A stretch of 21,139 nucleotides of DNA from a virus. The notes below the pieces were generated by a model. The model worked only from the letters and a program-made list of their open reading frames with translations, was not told where the DNA came from and ran no database searches. The stretch lies in the IMG/VR virus record IMGVR_UViG_3300005608_000027, positions 1 to 21,139 of that record; one strand, 5' to 3'. Below, one piece after another: positions 3,467 to 19,677 of the stretch. The position numbers were made by a program, and so were the translations under genes. The number at the start of each line of letters is the position of its first letter. The first letter of the stretch is position 1.

Positions 3467-3988
3467 TCAATAAGGGAAGTCAGAGTTGGTTGATTTGTAA
3501 TGATCATCAAAATGCAAGAGTAGCATAGCATAATGAATGACTTTAAGTAAATCTTTTTTATTTTTTCCATCTTTATCGCCATATCTACTTCCATACTTTA
3601 AAATATTTGCTTGACAGAAATTAGAAGCAAGATTTTTTACTTCCATCAAATCAATAGTTTGAATATCTTTGAATCCTCCTTCATTTCCAGTGTAGTGACT
3701 ACGATAAGTGCCACTAACATATTCATGAATATCCTTCAAAATAACATCTTCATTATATTTCCAACGTCCGTTATTGTTGTCTGGTGCATTTGGAAGATCT
3801 GGGATGTTAACAGTGTAATCCATAGTTGTTTCGTCTAGAGAAGCCCATTGAGACAATGCATCACTTGGAATTGCTGGGATAGCAATTGTGTCTTCACCTA
3901 ATCCACCAACAATTCCATCTTCAGTTGTAGAGTATCCATCTGCTTTCGTAGTCATAACATCATAAAGTAAACTCCAAGCATTAGTCAT
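3467..3988 (-). CDS. DUF3310-like (SaV-like) protein (173 aa)
   Basis: The ATG at 3986-3988 gives MTNAWSLLYDVMTTKADGYS; a TTG at 4015 would overlap the upstream AAA+ gene and is less likely. The C-terminal third contains SHY...IQTIDLM, NFCQANILKYGSRYG, and KKDLLKVIHYAMLLL, which matches the pattern of phage DUF3310 proteins (Y, then a helix ending in GNAIKYIxRxGKK, then DLxKAxxYL). The first 80 residues are acidic and low in pattern. DUF3310 function is not established; the family is common in phage replication regions. It lies 4 nt after the CobS-like gene and 2 nt before gp45. Confidence 0.6.
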   Translation of the reverse strand: MTNAWSLLYDVMTTKADGYSTTEDGIVGGLGEDTIAIPAIPSDALSQWASLDETTMDYTVNIPDLPNAPDNNNGRWKYNEDVILKDIHEYVSGTYRSHYTGNEGGFKDIQTIDLMEVKNLASNFCQANILKYGSRYGDKDGKNKKDLLKVIHYAMLLLHFDDHYKSTNSDFPY

Positions 3989-3992
3989 TTTA

Positions 3993-5081
3993 TCACTCAG
4001 CAGTATAAGTGTCAACGATATCCTCAGAGGGCATCACGAAATCAGCATCAACTTTATCATACAGTTCCAGGAATGCCTGCTTAGTTTCGTCATCAAAACG
4101 ATTCACGCAAACCTCAATTGCTTTTGCTTTGTCACCGAAAATATTGTATGCCTGAACAATATGAACCAAACGACGAGTGCTGATGATCTCCTCAATACCA
4201 CCATCATAGAAAGTCTTACGGATGATATCTGCCCAGTCTGCAAGACGCTTACAGAAAGTATCATCAGTGCAAAGTTTAGAGAGAATCTTAGTCTCAATAG
4301 CAGTGGTAGGATACTCTTGCTCAAAGGTGACGGGGAAACGCTCTAGAAACGCTTCGTTGAGCACGTTAGTTCCAATGAATCGTCCGTCGTCACTACCTTT
4401 ACCCTTAGTGTTGGCTGTGGCGACGACATTGAATCCACTTCGAGGAGAAACCCATCTTCCGATTTTTTTAAGGAAAACTCCTTTCCCTTCAAGGATAGAT
4501 TGGAGACAGAGAATTTTGTTAGAAGCGAGATCGAGTTCGTCAAGGAGCAATACAGCACCGCGTTCGAGTGCTTCGATGACTGGGCCATTGTGCCAGACGG
4601 TGTTGCCATCAATAAGGCGGAAACCGCCAATAAGATCATCTTCATCAGTTTCGATTGTAATGTTTACACGGATTAGTTCCCTTCCGAGTTGGGCACACGC
4701 TTGCTCAACCGAAAAAGTCTTGCCATTACCGGAGAGTCCCGTAATGAACGTTGGATAAAAAATACCGGACTGAATAATTTTTTTAATATCAGCGAAGTTA
4801 CCAAACTTGACGAAGGAATCATCTTTCTGAGGAATAAGATTTTGCTCAACTGCAGGCATAGCAGCAGGAGCAGTATAGGACGTTTCCAGATCTTCTACAG
4901 TCTCTTTAGTTACTTCCAAATTCCACTTACCACGTCCGACTTTGTAATCCGATAATTTGTTAGTGACAGTCTGATAGTTAGAACCGTTCATAGCACACCA
5001 TGCACGAACATCGGCTGCAGTGAACTCGATGCCATACAGTTCTTGAAGTGAGGTGCGAATGTACTCGGGGGACAGTGCCAT
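3993..5081 (-). CDS. cobS: CobS-like MoxR-family AAA+ ATPase (362 aa)
   Basis: The AAA+ core shows Walker A GLSGNGKT (115-122), Walker B VLLLDELD (177-184), a sensor I ATAN (221-224) and an arginine-finger context ERF (247-249). The GGFRLIDGNTVWHNGPVIEAL stretch before Walker B is typical of MoxR/CobS-type ATPases. In bacteria CobS works with CobT in cobalt insertion into the corrin ring; MoxR ATPases generally pair with VWA proteins to remodel targets. Cyanophage genomes commonly carry this gene under the CobS name. The VWA partner candidate is the gene just upstream (5281-7368). No chelatase subunit CobN is seen here, so cobalamin synthesis is an inference by name only. Confidence 0.85.
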   Translation of the reverse strand: MALSPEYIRTSLQELYGIEFTAADVRAWCAMNGSNYQTVTNKLSDYKVGRGKWNLEVTKETVEDLETSYTAPAAMPAVEQNLIPQKDDSFVKFGNFADIKKIIQSGIFYPTFITGLSGNGKTFSVEQACAQLGRELIRVNITIETDEDDLIGGFRLIDGNTVWHNGPVIEALERGAVLLLDELDLASNKILCLQSILEGKGVFLKKIGRWVSPRSGFNVVATANTKGKGSDDGRFIGTNVLNEAFLERFPVTFEQEYPTTAIETKILSKLCTDDTFCKRLADWADIIRKTFYDGGIEEIISTRRLVHIVQAYNIFGDKAKAIEVCVNRFDDETKQAFLELYDKVDADFVMPSEDIVDTYTAE

Positions 5082-5104
5082 GTGCTTTTGTTGTTTACCT
5101 GCTT

Positions 5105-5110
5105 ATTATA
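5105..5110 (-). promoter_or_regulatory. Possible -10 box upstream of the CobS-like gene
   Basis: On the minus strand a perfect TATAAT lies 24 nt before the ATG at 5081 and just after the terminator at 5117-5139. The -35 position falls in the terminator loop and does not match TTGACA. It could restart transcription of the cobS-45-44-62 operon after the terminator. Confidence 0.35.
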
Positions 5111-5116
5111 CACACA

Positions 5117-5139
5117 AAAAAGGGGGGCATGTACCCCCA
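5117..5139 (-). terminator. Rho-independent terminator after the 46-aa ORF
   Basis: The minus-strand transcript reads GGGGG, loop TACATG, CCCCCC, then six T. It starts five bases after the stop of the 46-aa ORF, closing the CobT-like unit and separating it from the CobS-like gene. Confidence 0.85.
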
Positions 5140-5143
5140 GTGT

Positions 5144-5284
5144 TCACTTTTCAAACCGTCTATACTTGAATTTCATTACTTGGAGCATCCATGCGTCAGT
5201 CAATTTCTTAGGGCCCTCCATAAGAACCTTGCGAACCCTGGGATCGGTTTCCATCTGAAGTGCAATTTCTTTCCAAGTCATCAT
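5144..5284 (-). CDS. Small ORF (46 aa) coupled to the CobT-like gene
   Basis: The ATG at 5282-5284 overlaps the TGA of the CobT-like gene (ATGA) and the frame ends TGA at 5144-5146, right before the terminator. The product starts MMTWKEIALQMETDPRVRKV and is basic at its end (KFKYRRFEK), with a predicted all-helical look. I do not recognise a family. The exact fit between an overlapping start and a terminator argues that it is a translated gene. It may be a partner or regulator of the VWA protein. Confidence 0.7.
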   Translation of the reverse strand: MMTWKEIALQMETDPRVRKVLMEGPKKLTDAWMLQVMKFKYRRFEK

Positions 5285-7368
5285 GCTACTAGAGAAATAA
5301 ATTCACCCAGGACTTTTTTATTTAGTTTCTTAGTCTTAAGACTTTTGGCGAAAGCAGACTTAATCTTTGCTTTTGATGCTCCATCGTCCACCTCAAACTC
5401 AACATCTTGAGCAAGAGCCGTGCATGAAAGTCCAAAGTATGCATCATATCCAGACTCACGGATCACAAATCCTTTCTCTTTCTTCCACTCATTCTGCAGT
5501 TTAATTAGTTCTTCACCATGATCATAATAAAGTTTAAGAAAATTATTAGCATCGCGAGGAGCAAGTAAACGAATGCCAACAAAGTTCACTTCAGGAAAAT
5601 TATCCTTAAGATTCTTCAGCATGACATCAGAGAATCCGTTGAAGTTTCCAGACTCAAACTTATACATGTTACCAGTCTTACGATCGCGTAGAATAGTTTT
5701 CCAGTGATCGTGTCTAGCCTCTCCAAGAAACTCAGCATTGTTCTCCCAGTACCTCTTAATCAATTTGTGACGATTGAGAGGACATGCTTCACCATCAGTC
5801 AGAACCACACATTGAACTTTCTGCAGTTTGTTTTCACGTTGAAACTTAGGAAGGATCTGATGAAGAGATACAAGTGCTTCATTCAAAGGAGTTCCTGACA
5901 GAGACATCTTCCTGCCCCAAGTATAGCAAGAACGATATACTCTAGTAAAACCTACAGCATGTCGCCAGACGTTGATCATCTGATGCTCTAGATCTTTGGC
6001 AGATACTTTGCTTGTAAGAATGTTGAGGAGATTGAAATCATCTGAAACACAAAGAAGATTTTCTTTCTTCTCGTAATGATCTAATAATTGATGTGGAAAA
6101 TTAATATCATGACTACTCCACTCATTAGTAAAAGCATATACATCAAAAGGAATACCAACTTTCTTACAGAACCACAGCAGGTTAAACATTTGCTTACAAG
6201 TATCCATCAGAGTGTATTGCATTGAACCACTCCAATCAAGCATAAAAACAAGTCCATGGTTCTTACCGTCCGCAAGAGTTGTTACCTTGCGGAAAAGATC
6301 TTCATTATACTTGTAGGTGTGAAGTTTGGTGCAGTCAAGAACACCAGTGCGAGAAGTTGTGGCACGGGCGTATGAGTCAGCCGCTTTCTTACACTCAAAC
6401 TCTTTTACCAGGTAATTGACTTCTTTCTGCGCTGAACGCTTGAACTGAATATATTCTTTGTCACACTCCTCAAAGATCCGCATATCCATTTCAAGTCCAG
6501 CACGTTCCTGACAATCAAAGACATGATCAACATATCGATGCACCAGATCGTTACTGACAATAATCGTATCCAGATTTACTTTCGGAACCTCAACATAAAC
6601 AGTTTCGATACCATCAGTCTGTGCTAGTTGTTCAATACTGTTAGAAAGAGAATCTGCAGTTTCAACTTCCGGTTCTACTTCTTGTTCAGAATTATCTTGC
6701 CCTCCATCATCAGGAACATCTTGAATGTTTCCCTGAGGTTTTGACTCCTCACTATCCTGCTCTTCTTGTTCCTCAGACGATTGTTCTTGAGACTTAGGTG
6801 CTTCTATATCTTGAGTTTCGTTATTGACTTCTTTCTTGCAATACTTGTAAAGTTCTTCTGCTGCCTCAGTAACATCCTCAAATGTCTCACAATCTCTAAT
6901 CATACGGACGATTGACATCTCTTCTTCAGAGAATTCAATATCTACAAAATTACCAATCTTAAAGTATAGATTTGTACGATCAGCAAGATTGAACTCATTG
7001 ACATCTTCATCAGAGATTTTGAAGAAATCATCATCACTCATCTGATTATATCCTCTGAAGAATGTCTTATGCATTCCAGGATACTTACGCTTCATTAACT
7101 TCTCAATACGAGCATCCTCAACAATATTGATAAAGGAGTGAGGAATACCCTTTGGTGGATCCACATCAGGAGTGAAGAGAGCATGTCCAACTTCATGTCC
7201 TACAAGAAGATCGTAAACAGTATTACTTGCACTCTCCCACATCGGAAGCGTCAGCACACGCTTATGAACATCAAACTGAGCAGTAGAAACCTTACGGTGC
7301 TCAACCACCAGATCCTCAGTGGCAAGAAGTTTGGCGAGTTGTGACTTGATTTCTTGTAGGACTGGCAT
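5281..7368 (-). CDS. cobT: CobT-like protein: HEXXH peptidase-like domain fused to VWA domain (695 aa)
   Basis: Domains in order: an N-terminal region with LLVGHEVGHALF (HEXXH at 58-62) followed by FINIVEDARIEKL (79-91), the layout of a zinc metallopeptidase; an acidic low-complexity linker (about 178-238, many E, Q, S); a helical part; and a C-terminal VWA domain with MIDAS DWSGS (378-382), GTPLNEA (492-498) and LTDGEA (523-528). VWA proteins of this type act as partners of MoxR/CobS ATPases, here encoded downstream. Cyanophage homologues are often labelled CobT or peptidase. The start ATG at 7366-7368 has an AAGGA ribosome site 6-8 nt upstream. Terminators flank the unit on both sides. Whether it cleaves proteins or assists metal insertion cannot be told from sequence. 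Confidence 0.85.
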   Translation of the reverse strand: MPVLQEIKSQLAKLLATEDLVVEHRKVSTAQFDVHKRVLTLPMWESASNTVYDLLVGHEVGHALFTPDVDPPKGIPHSFINIVEDARIEKLMKRKYPGMHKTFFRGYNQMSDDDFFKISDEDVNEFNLADRTNLYFKIGNFVDIEFSEEEMSIVRMIRDCETFEDVTEAAEELYKYCKKEVNNETQDIEAPKSQEQSSEEQEEQDSEESKPQGNIQDVPDDGGQDNSEQEVEPEVETADSLSNSIEQLAQTDGIETVYVEVPKVNLDTIIVSNDLVHRYVDHVFDCQERAGLEMDMRIFEECDKEYIQFKRSAQKEVNYLVKEFECKKAADSYARATTSRTGVLDCTKLHTYKYNEDLFRKVTTLADGKNHGLVFMLDWSGSMQYTLMDTCKQMFNLLWFCKKVGIPFDVYAFTNEWSSHDINFPHQLLDHYEKKENLLCVSDDFNLLNILTSKVSAKDLEHQMINVWRHAVGFTRVYRSCYTWGRKMSLSGTPLNEALVSLHQILPKFQRENKLQKVQCVVLTDGEACPLNRHKLIKRYWENNAEFLGEARHDHWKTILRDRKTGNMYKFESGNFNGFSDVMLKNLKDNFPEVNFVGIRLLAPRDANNFLKLYYDHGEELIKLQNEWKKEKGFVIRESGYDAYFGLSCTALAQDVEFEVDDGASKAKIKSAFAKSLKTKKLNKKVLGEFISLVA

Positions 7369-13814: not shown

Positions 13815-14033
13815 TTAGTCAATTTGAAACTTATATTCAAGAACTACTCTATATAAAAAATTTTTTAAATATTGCAATCTTTCTTGCTCGTCAGGATCTC
13901 CTCCTGTCCATTTATCTAAATGAACAGAAACTGATTTATACAATAAGTGCAAATCTTCAGGGCCAAATTGTAGTTCTATGTATGGAAGATCTTCATTAAA
14001 ATCATCATCTTGATATGTCCATTCATTATTCAT
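13815..14033 (-). CDS. Small acidic protein (72 aa)
   Basis: The product begins MNNEWTYQDDDFNEDLPYIE, followed by GPEDLHLLYKSVSVHLDKW, GGDPDEQERLQYLKNFLYRV, and a short end. It is acidic and helical, with no motif that I recognise. It lies 26 nt upstream of the uvsW start and is divergent from the plus-strand oxygenase. A late-promoter-like AATAAATA is 31 nt upstream of its ATG. The periodic helices make it look like a genuine small protein. Confidence 0.7.
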   Translation of the reverse strand: MNNEWTYQDDDFNEDLPYIELQFGPEDLHLLYKSVSVHLDKWTGGDPDEQERLQYLKNFLYRVVLEYKFQID

Positions 14034-18307: not shown

Positions 18308-18315
18308 TATTTATA
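18308..18315 (-). promoter_or_regulatory. T4-type late promoter TATAAATA upstream of gp22
   Basis: Exact match to the gp55-dependent late consensus on the minus strand, 38 nt before the gp22 ATG. It should drive gp22 and gp23 at high level. Confidence 0.8.
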
Positions 18316-19264: not shown

Positions 19265-19489
19265 TCAGACAGTCTCCTCTTCTGGTTCTTCTTCAGTTTC
19301 TAATTCGTCGGTGACTTCAAGAGTTTCCTCTCCATCTTCGACATCATTTCCATCAAATAAACTATTTGCCACTAAGGGGCGAGCAGCATCAACCCTCTCA
19401 GCAGCTTTTCCAAACAAAATATCCTTGATTCTATCGCTAATTTGCGAAGGAGAATCATCGGATACTATCATATCCATAAGTTCATCCAT
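19265..19489 (-). CDS. 67: gp67-like prohead core protein (74 aa)
   Basis: The N-terminal part MDELMDMIVSDDSPSQISDR, followed by IKDILFGKAAERVDAARPLV, is a helical head, and the C-terminal 25 residues are almost all E, D and T. T4 gp67 (80 aa) has the same design, a short helical start with a strongly acidic tail, and sits at the same position between gp20 and gp21. gp67 is an internal core protein processed by gp21. A TATAAATA late promoter lies 28 nt upstream. Confidence 0.7.
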   Translation of the reverse strand: MDELMDMIVSDDSPSQISDRIKDILFGKAAERVDAARPLVANSLFDGNDVEDGEETLEVTDELETEEEPEEETV

Positions 19490-19515: not shown

Positions 19516-19677
19516 TTATTTATACCTACTTGTTGCTCTCAGAAAAAATGGGTGAATATTTTTATATGGATATAGATGTGGATGTTTATTTTGCAAATTT
19601 AAATCATTTAAATGAGGATGTTTCCATTGATTTTCGATCATATATTTTATAATACATTTTTTTAAATCTGTATCCAT
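19516..19677 (-). CDS. Doubtful small ORF (53 aa) after gp20
   Basis: An ATG at 19675-19677, 8 nt after the gp20 stop, opens a 53-codon frame starting MDTDLKKCIIKYMIENQWKH and containing two KHPHL repeats, ending in TAA within the late promoter box. GGAG and GCGGA precede it. A plus-strand frame of 34 codons (19548-19652) reads equally well in the same DNA, so one or both may be chance. The region is very A+T rich. Kept as a possible gene because it fills the 195-nt gap with coupling-like spacing. Confidence 0.4.
   Translation of the reverse strand: MDTDLKKCIIKYMIENQWKHPHLNDLNLQNKHPHLYPYKNIHPFFLRATSRYK
19517..19524 (-). promoter_or_regulatory. T4-type late promoter TATAAATA upstream of the gp67-like gene
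   Basis: Exact late consensus on the minus strand, 28 nt before the ATG at 19489; the predicted leader is about 22 nt. The stop codon of the doubtful 53-aa ORF lies inside this box. It should drive the 67-like, 89-aa and gp21 genes. Confidence 0.8.

Follow-up and report, generated by a model that had tools for sequence, protein, structure and literature searches.

Does a gene pair of cyanophages that is usually filed under vitamin B12 synthesis encode part of a cobalt chelatase, or a machine of another kind? The question is raised by a stretch of viral DNA of 21,139 bases (IMG/VR virus record IMGVR_UViG_3300005608_000027, positions 1 to 21,139; the whole stretch is called the window below). 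In it, a gene for a 695-aa protein with an HEXXH motif and a VWA domain (5281-7368) lies beside the gene for a 362-aa CobS/MoxR-like AAA+ ATPase (3993-5081); these genes and their features are all on the minus strand. The pair looks instead like an ATP-driven machine that keeps a zinc-protease-type site. T4-like cyanophages are the closest listed relatives of the window, 57% of which aligns in megablast with Synechococcus phage S-SM2 (Kyanoviridae), the identity being 77.5%; judged by this similarity, it is a cyanomyophage fragment. The original prediction, made from the letters alone, had named the open reading frames (ORFs), HEVGH, NIVEDARIE, a full metal ion-dependent adhesion site (MIDAS) and the AAA+ neighbour, all of which are present. 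Its statement that the gene is labelled CobT in cyanophages needs correction: most listed cyanophage records say 'peptidase', and the CobT label comes from a paper.

Conservation of the zinc-type site and the MIDAS

The 695-aa protein matches phrog_459, the cyanophage 'peptidase' (E 1.7e-261). A tblastn search with it gave matches in 463 of 50,697 phage records, 456 of them at a coverage of at least 80%; they are named Synechococcus (365), Cyanophage (61), Prochlorococcus (24), Marine (7), Pelagibacter (3), and Stenotrophomonas, Pseudoalteromonas and Ochrobactrum (one each). A sequence search of the PDB with the full-length protein returned nothing relevant. HEVGH occupies residues 58-62 (7183-7197), with H58 and H62 as predicted zinc ligands and E59 as predicted general base. 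NIVEDARIE follows at residues 81-89 (7102-7128) and would supply the third ligand, D85, and a second-shell residue, E89. The MIDAS consists of DWSGS at residues 378-382 (6223-6237) with T493 and D525.

These residues were compared in an alignment of 85 homologues (A4), which consists of the window, seven further loci and 77 of 78 new viral loci; the 78 come from the best 80 of 591 relatives, two of these 80 being already in the set. H58, E59, H62, N81, E84, D85, R87 and E89 are invariant in A4, as are D378, S380, S382, T493 and D525 of the MIDAS, and HEXXH is thus conserved in 85 of 85 rows, as is expected of a zincin. Over the whole alignment 114 of the 695 positions are invariant, and the median pairwise identity is 0.59. 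Both HE..H and N..ED..E are kept in all 78 new loci. A bare HE..H appears in 1,003 of 20,000 shuffles (5%) of the 695-aa protein, so the case for the motif rests on its conservation, by which a chance origin is rejected, and not on the motif alone.

The same site was found in divergent phage proteins named CobT, cobalamin/porphyrin biosynthesis or peptidase, namely those of DLP6 (HEIGH / NVIEDARIE), RHEph10 (HEVAH / NIVEDTMIE), SSU5 (HEVAH / NALEDVFIE), CRP-810 (HEAGH / NALEDIWLE), Mae-Yong (HETLH / NCLEDVRIE) and ICP2 (HECYH / NMVVDHNIE). As a single query, the DLP6 protein found no viral relatives. HE..H is intact in 68 of 80 viral loci of the SSU5/RHEph10 type; eight read SEISK, SEVSK or AEISK, and four are truncated or unclear.

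Predicted structure and zinc ligands

The full-length model of the 695-aa protein has a predicted local distance difference test score (pLDDT) of 76, and its fold search was filled by VWA chains; the N-terminal domain was therefore modelled separately. The alignment used for this (A5, 73 rows) consists of the window, 42 cyanophage rows and 30 of 34 divergent rows picked by script for an intact HE..H, and the list of divergent relatives holds the best 80 of 162. Since these rows were chosen for HE..H, H58, E59 and H62 are bound to be invariant in A5; no such choice lies behind the invariance of E84, D85 and E89. Modelled with A5, residues 1-190 reached a pLDDT of 90.0 and a predicted template modelling score of 0.85, and they comprise a zincin-like domain at residues ~1-186 (6811-7368). 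The order of elements in the model is a helix (9-17), three strands, a helix with HEVGH (49-65) and a helix with NIVEDARIE (77-95).

The first nine Foldseek rows against the PDB are zincins (selecase, ArdC, abylysin), with a best probability of 1.00. VIA-align places ArdC on top (Z 6.9, root-mean-square deviation 4.6, 123 aligned), followed by selecase (Z 6.3), ZMPSTE24 (5.5), jannalysin (5.5), BlaR1 (5.4), Wss1 (4.8) and IrrE (4.6). A mycobacterial transcriptional regulator accounts for three rows near Z 5.2, and most of the leading rows are zincins. In a search of viral models, the significant named matches are phage CobT or VWFA proteins, and many rows are nameless. The case for a zincin-like N-terminal domain lies in the number of zincins among these rows and in the position of the motifs, each on the helix where a zincin would have it; the scores themselves are weak and below the level that the tool regards as safe. 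As for the zincin fold put forward for residues 1-180, the model did not refute it: judged by helix order, the two helices expected to carry H58, H62 and the E84-D85 region are present at 49-65 and 77-95.

To assign the third ligand, co-occurrence with HE..H was counted in 83 non-redundant rows, with two (V_L216 and G_L149) set aside as misaligned. D85, which lies inside the predicted helix 77-95, is present in 53 of 53 rows with HE..H and in one of the 28 without it; those 28 keep E84 throughout and E89 in 27 cases. E84 was ruled out as the third ligand, V being found at this position in ICP2, and E89 likewise, with N at this position in locus L145. Given these two exceptions and its own retention in every row with HE..H, D85 is the best candidate, and since it changes together with the histidines, H58, H62 and D85 are the likely zinc ligands. 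The spacing of the site is HEXXH-22-DxxxE. It resembles that of gluzincins, which have ExxxD with Glu as the third ligand.

The anti-CRISPR protein AcrIIA26 (PDB 9zq6_B) matches the A5 profile of the N-terminal domain around NxVEDxxIE with an E of 0.0014, the next match being an RNA polymerase at 0.067. The part of the AcrIIA26 paper available describes a novel fold and no DALI match (PMC13089141). From this resemblance, AcrIIA26 may derive from such an N-terminal domain.

An acidic linker follows at residues ~186-235 (6664-6813) and is mostly of low confidence (pLDDT <50 at 186-230). The helical arm and VWA domain (residues ~300-695; 5284-6471) are nearest to the MDN1/Rea1 MIDAS and the NorD VWA domain, with nine rows at Z 12.7-14.2 in the structure search and 8ql1 and 9qh6 on top at 14.2. 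Other VWA domains score 11.7 and lower, and one NorQD state 10.9.

The partner ATPase matches phrog_249 'porphyrin biosynthesis' (E 3.9e-138) and AAA_5 (E 1.2e-16), and CbbQ_C at the cut-off (20.6 bits). It falls short of the TIGR01650 CobS equivalog cut-off, with 64.7 bits vs 558.55, and its sequence matches include midasin, CobS, NorQ and CbbQ. The window therefore holds what defines a MoxR AAA+/VWA pair, a MoxR/AAA_5 ATPase beside a VWA protein with a full MIDAS. Between the two genes, and overlapping the end of the 695-aa gene, is an ORF of 46 aa (5144-5284, minus strand), whose membership in the system is uncertain. It stands at the same place as SSM2_134 in phage S-SM2, a correspondence judged by position, and CTAAATA is found 41 bases before it. 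A gene for a DUF3310 protein (3467-4015, minus strand; E 6.2e-9) overlaps the end of the ATPase gene.

Relation to cobaltochelatase CobT

The 695-aa protein reaches 11.2 of the 26.1 bits required by PF06213 CobT. PF11775 CobT_C was not listed for it in a Pfam scan, in which the HMMER filters drop most matches above E 0.1, and BLASTP against one cellular CobT gave nothing significant (E 0.34). It is matched by phrog_5298 'cobalamin biosynthesis protein' (E 4.5e-6), and hhalign joins the phage and CobT N-domain profiles with a probability of 77 and an E of 2e-5. Four divergent proteins were scanned against Pfam: RHEph10 lies above the CobT and CobT_C cut-offs, Saratov-12 (ICP2 type) above that of CobT_C, and DLP6 and Mae-Yong above neither. 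By these profile matches, CobT and the phage proteins are remotely related.

HEXXH is absent from the first 260 residues of all 30 chelatase-type CobT proteins from the order of Paracoccus, which supports the view that HEVGH/NIVEDARIE sets the phage protein apart from CobT of the chelatase type. At the place of HE..H the cellular proteins read ALALx, GMALR or similar, at that of NxxEDxxIE they read VEQARVE, LEQLRVE or similar, and the aligned rows have Q or R at the D85 position.

A tree was built from 74 rows, nine of the 83 being dropped as fragments or divergent (V_L216, V_L179, V_L184, V_L205, V_L211, G_L146, G_L145, G_L149 and G_L148); the dropped G_L148 has lost the motif (REVAK) and retains D85. 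The tree was made by a quick method with a midpoint root and meeting long branches, and so does not give the direction of change. It requires at least three changes of the site, in a cellular CobT/Halomonas-type clade (17 rows), a clade of phage nickie (8) and an Acinetobacter plasmid (1). Losing the site would be a simpler course than assembling it de novo. A wider proposal can be offered only tentatively: bacterial cobaltochelatase CobT may have arisen from a protease-VWA protein by loss of the zinc site, and many genes that are listed in phages and phage-plasmids as 'cobS/cobT' auxiliary metabolic genes may encode a replication-associated, AAA+-powered zinc protease and not belong to B12 synthesis. 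A parallel for such a protease at replication is Wss1/SPRTN, which works with an AAA+ motor.

Several relatives are of interest in themselves. In the pseudo-site versions of the nickie clade (L040, L186, L193, L195-L197, L201, L202, L204) and the Acinetobacter plasmid (L042), both histidines and D85 are replaced and the CobS-like partner is retained (annotated in L040 and L042), so that nature offers controls for a catalytic role. The Halomonas type (L132-L144) is a chromosomal CobST pair without the zinc site, and some of its genomes, e.g. H. elongata (L134), lack PF02514; its role may not be cobalt chelation either. In locus L145 (Candidatus Uhrbacteria), an ORF at 1052-2065, judged by eye to resemble a reverse transcriptase (YADD), overlaps the start of the HEGGH-VWA gene by four bases, possibly as part of a diversity-generating element.

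Genomic neighbourhood

The order of named genes in S-SM2 is gp47, gp46, peptidase, cobS, gp45 and gp44, with small ORFs, denV and speD between them, and from their order the neighbours in the window are read as the same genes. A CobS-like gene is found 82 to 4,042 bases downstream, in the same orientation, in all 52 cyanophage loci with at least 2.5 kb of downstream sequence, and near 78 of the 80 SSU5/RHEph10-type loci. Where both flanks were available (12 cyanophage loci), gp45, gp46 and gp47 were found in every locus, gp44 in 11 and uvsW in seven, and none of the virion queries matched near the pair. In SSU5/RHEph10-type clusters, DnaE, ligase, primase or helicase is present in 26 of 30, and a match to the few virion queries used within ~5 kb in none of 30. 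In 13 of the 29 records of these clusters a search does find the SSU5 terminase at another place, so the absence of virion genes is local. The pair also lies inside the replication region and away from structural genes on the maps of SSU5 (first 100 of 103 kb) and ICP2, and near polymerase, ligase or primase in DLP6, nickie, RHEph10 and two plasmids. The earlier suggestion of a host complex as the target is not favoured by these neighbours, which point to the replication genes of the phage itself.

Late-type promoter sequences TATAAATA are located in the window at 18308-18315 and 19517-19524 (minus strand), 46 and 35 bases before gp22 and the ORF 19265-19489. Their number, two against 1.21 expected, is not above chance, and their positions are suggestive. 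ATAAATA is also present before uvsW and the ORF 13815-14033, and no such late-type site precedes either gene of the pair in the window. In staphylococcal phage phiSA12, the product of ORF27, beside a CobS-like ATPase, is DUF7192 and not a VWA protein; hence not every such ATPase has an HEXXH-VWA partner.

Comparison with known systems

CobST (PF06213/PF11775 CobT; TIGR01650 CobS) resembles the pair in its gene arrangement, in an AAA+ protein with an acidic-linker VWA partner and in remote homology of the N-terminal domain; it differs in the missing HEXXH and in Q or R at D85, with the 695-aa protein under the CobT cut-off. Cobaltochelatase CobST needs CobN.

An AAA+/metallopeptidase-VWA architecture is already known in another sequence family (PF13203). 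For jumbo phages of group 2.2, the available part of PMC7824862 describes a MoxR ATPase with a vWA protein carrying an N-terminal metallopeptidase and suggests a role in virion assembly; it places cyanophages in group 2.1 and makes no mention of their pair. The pair of phage Atu_ph07 from that work (ASV44729.1/ASV44728.2) has the architecture and gene pairing found here. However, ASV44728.2 belongs to PF13203 DUF2201_N (E 4.2e-38), reads HQILH in place of HEXXH and fails to match the profile of the N-terminal domain (hhalign probability 0.2). PF13203 was not listed for the 695-aa protein in the Pfam scan with HMMER filters, for which ASV44728.2 served as positive control. Neither the N-domain profile nor the ATPase found a match in Atu_ph07, a result that shows little alone.

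MoxR-vWA conflict systems share the couple, and a metallopeptidase-vWA fusion is named among them as a rare effector in the accessible text of PMC7159879; they differ as cellular, multi-component defence, and were likened by description and not by sequence. NorQ-NorD and Rea1/midasin likewise combine a MoxR/midasin-type AAA+ protein with a MIDAS VWA domain and give the best structural matches of the VWA half, but a term search of the available NorQD text found neither peptidase nor zinc (PMC13036017). The minigluzincins (selecase, abylysin, jannalysin), ArdC, Wss1 and IrrE are the leading folds for the N-terminal domain, with an HEXXH helix and then a second acidic helix. They differ in that their scores are weak, none was found in sequence by the N-domain profile, and Asp takes the place of the gluzincin Glu as predicted third ligand.

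Two unrelated proteins share the name CobT, and the Escherichia phage record H239 names the present protein dimethylbenzimidazole phosphoribosyltransferase. The same function is given for it in the accessible part of the CHUG phage paper, which also terms phage cobS function uncertain (PMC11288001). In the parts available of other reports, cobS is listed as a cyanophage core gene (PMC3037559), the B12 reading is repeated (PMC9503304), and phage CobS is treated as a B12 gene with a role termed speculative (PMC11705849). The cyanophage gene has been called a 'CobT mistakenly annotated as a peptidase' (PMC8651126, text seen in part), which the present data contradict. Beyond the papers cited here, no link between phage CobT and a metallopeptidase was found among the open-licence full texts listed, in some cases the first 20 of a list.

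Proposed mechanism and alternative explanations

A MoxR-type AAA+/VWA machine with a zincin-like domain is well supported, and we consider that the pair probably forms an ATP-powered remodelling or protease machine, which acts, with less confidence, in phage DNA replication. In this machine the CobS/MoxR-like protein would form the motor ring, with the 695-aa protein as a VWA cochaperone that carries a zincin domain at its N-terminus. The VWA end would dock on the ring while the MIDAS grips the substrate, and ATP hydrolysis would twist or pull it, as in the twisting mechanism proposed in the available text on NorQD (PMC13036017). The tethered N-terminal domain, in which H58, H62 and D85 would bind zinc and E59 would be the base, might then cut or clamp the exposed segment. 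The machine would probably act while phage DNA is replicated, and its substrate may be a protein at or near the replication complex. The original prediction of a remodelling or proteolysis machine agrees with the intact motif, the zincin-like model, the NorD/Rea1-like VWA domain and the constant CobS-like gene, and it is qualified by relatives that lost the site but keep the pair.

Several points weigh against this mechanism. The fold matches are weak, with no Foldseek E below 0.001 (the best is 0.02) and a best Z that falls short of the 8 advised by the tool. The nickie clade and the Acinetobacter plasmid keep the pair but have lost both histidines, so peptidase chemistry is dispensable there. 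The 26 clusters with replication neighbours are not independent, as 13 of the 29 records share an SSU5-like terminase and are partly one lineage, and no replication neighbour is present in four CRP-810-like clusters. T4-like genomes are dense in replication genes, and the cyanophage neighbourhood, counted without a random-position control, proves little alone.

An action of the phage CobST with host CobN to raise cobalamin supply, as proposed in the available part of PMC8651126, is improbable. Remote homology to CobT and CobS speaks for it, as does PF02514 (CobN or ChlH) in the control genome of Synechococcus elongatus, but the missed CobT cut-off and the lack of HEXXH in chelatase-type CobT argue otherwise. 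CobN was matched in just two of 50,697 phage records (one CobN query, E 0.001), and no CobN ORF was seen in the window, a 21-kb fragment, as had been noted from its sequence. In the family to which Kluyvera G008 belongs, PF02514 is absent from all 99 genomes (61 of at least 3 Mb by our own count; five control genomes positive), yet plasmids of Klebsiella, Escherichia, Enterobacter and Salmonella carry SSU5-type genes. The SSU5 gene matches 970 of 72,556 plasmid records at E 1e-5, 405 of them with at least 80% coverage, chiefly from Klebsiella (348), Escherichia (229), Acinetobacter (155) and Enterobacter (92); among the weaker matches are a Pandoraea gene of the chelatase type and the degenerate type of Acinetobacter. 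Moreover, Paracoccus genome G003 (L124, L244) carries a chelatase-type CobT (E 2.3e-100) in addition to the zinc-type protein of L124 (E 1.1e-9), and all 61 genomes of its order have a strong PF06213 match. By type, PF02514 is found in two of seven HEXXH-type genomes vs 11 of 20 others, a split that is not clean, the 20 including L147 (ORF not recovered) and L148. In cyanobacterial hosts PF02514 cannot separate CobN from ChlH, and the S. elongatus match may be ChlH. Action with host CobN is thus unlikely overall, less firmly so for cyanobacterial hosts.

A non-catalytic adaptor, in which the zinc site is structural and the machine only remodels, deserves more weight than the chelatase and is still the less probable reading: the nickie clade and the Acinetobacter plasmid have lost the site and still have the pair, chelatases do not have the site, and proteins that lack it mostly retain E84 and E89, as expected of structural residues. 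Against this, E59, expected to be a catalytic base and not a ligand, is as invariant as the histidines (85 of 85). A chaperone-protease that processes structural proteins during virion assembly, as the accessible text of PMC7824862 proposes for the group 2.2 pair with the MoxR-vWA of Acidianus two-tailed virus as a tail precedent, would suit a gene widely conserved in T4-like cyanophages. It is doubtful, since the pair is apart from virion genes in SSU5 and ICP2 and the clusters show no virion match even though terminase is detectable in their records, few queries being used. The promoter sequences are a weak point of this argument: ATAAATA precedes gp22 and the ORF 19265-19489 and not the pair, with the TATAAATA count near chance. 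A protease for counter-defence or host takeover, removing a host protein or immune complex, gains from ArdC, an antirestriction metallopeptidase, as the best-Z fold, from IrrE/PprI in the same list, and from the stretch shared with AcrIIA26. Counter-defence genes are typically patchy in distribution, but the present gene is widespread and syntenic in cyanophages, the ArdC score is low and an RNA polymerase comes next in the AcrIIA26 search; we think this role improbable as well.

Implications for phage biology

Cyanophage cobS is classed with the auxiliary metabolic genes for B12. Should the zinc site prove real, ATP-driven protein remodelling or proteolysis would be a conserved step in a very common group of marine phages and in SSU5-type phage-plasmids, and the B12 metabolic inference should be dropped. 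It would also give a testable account of the kinship between a metal-chelatase subunit and a protease-like cochaperone.

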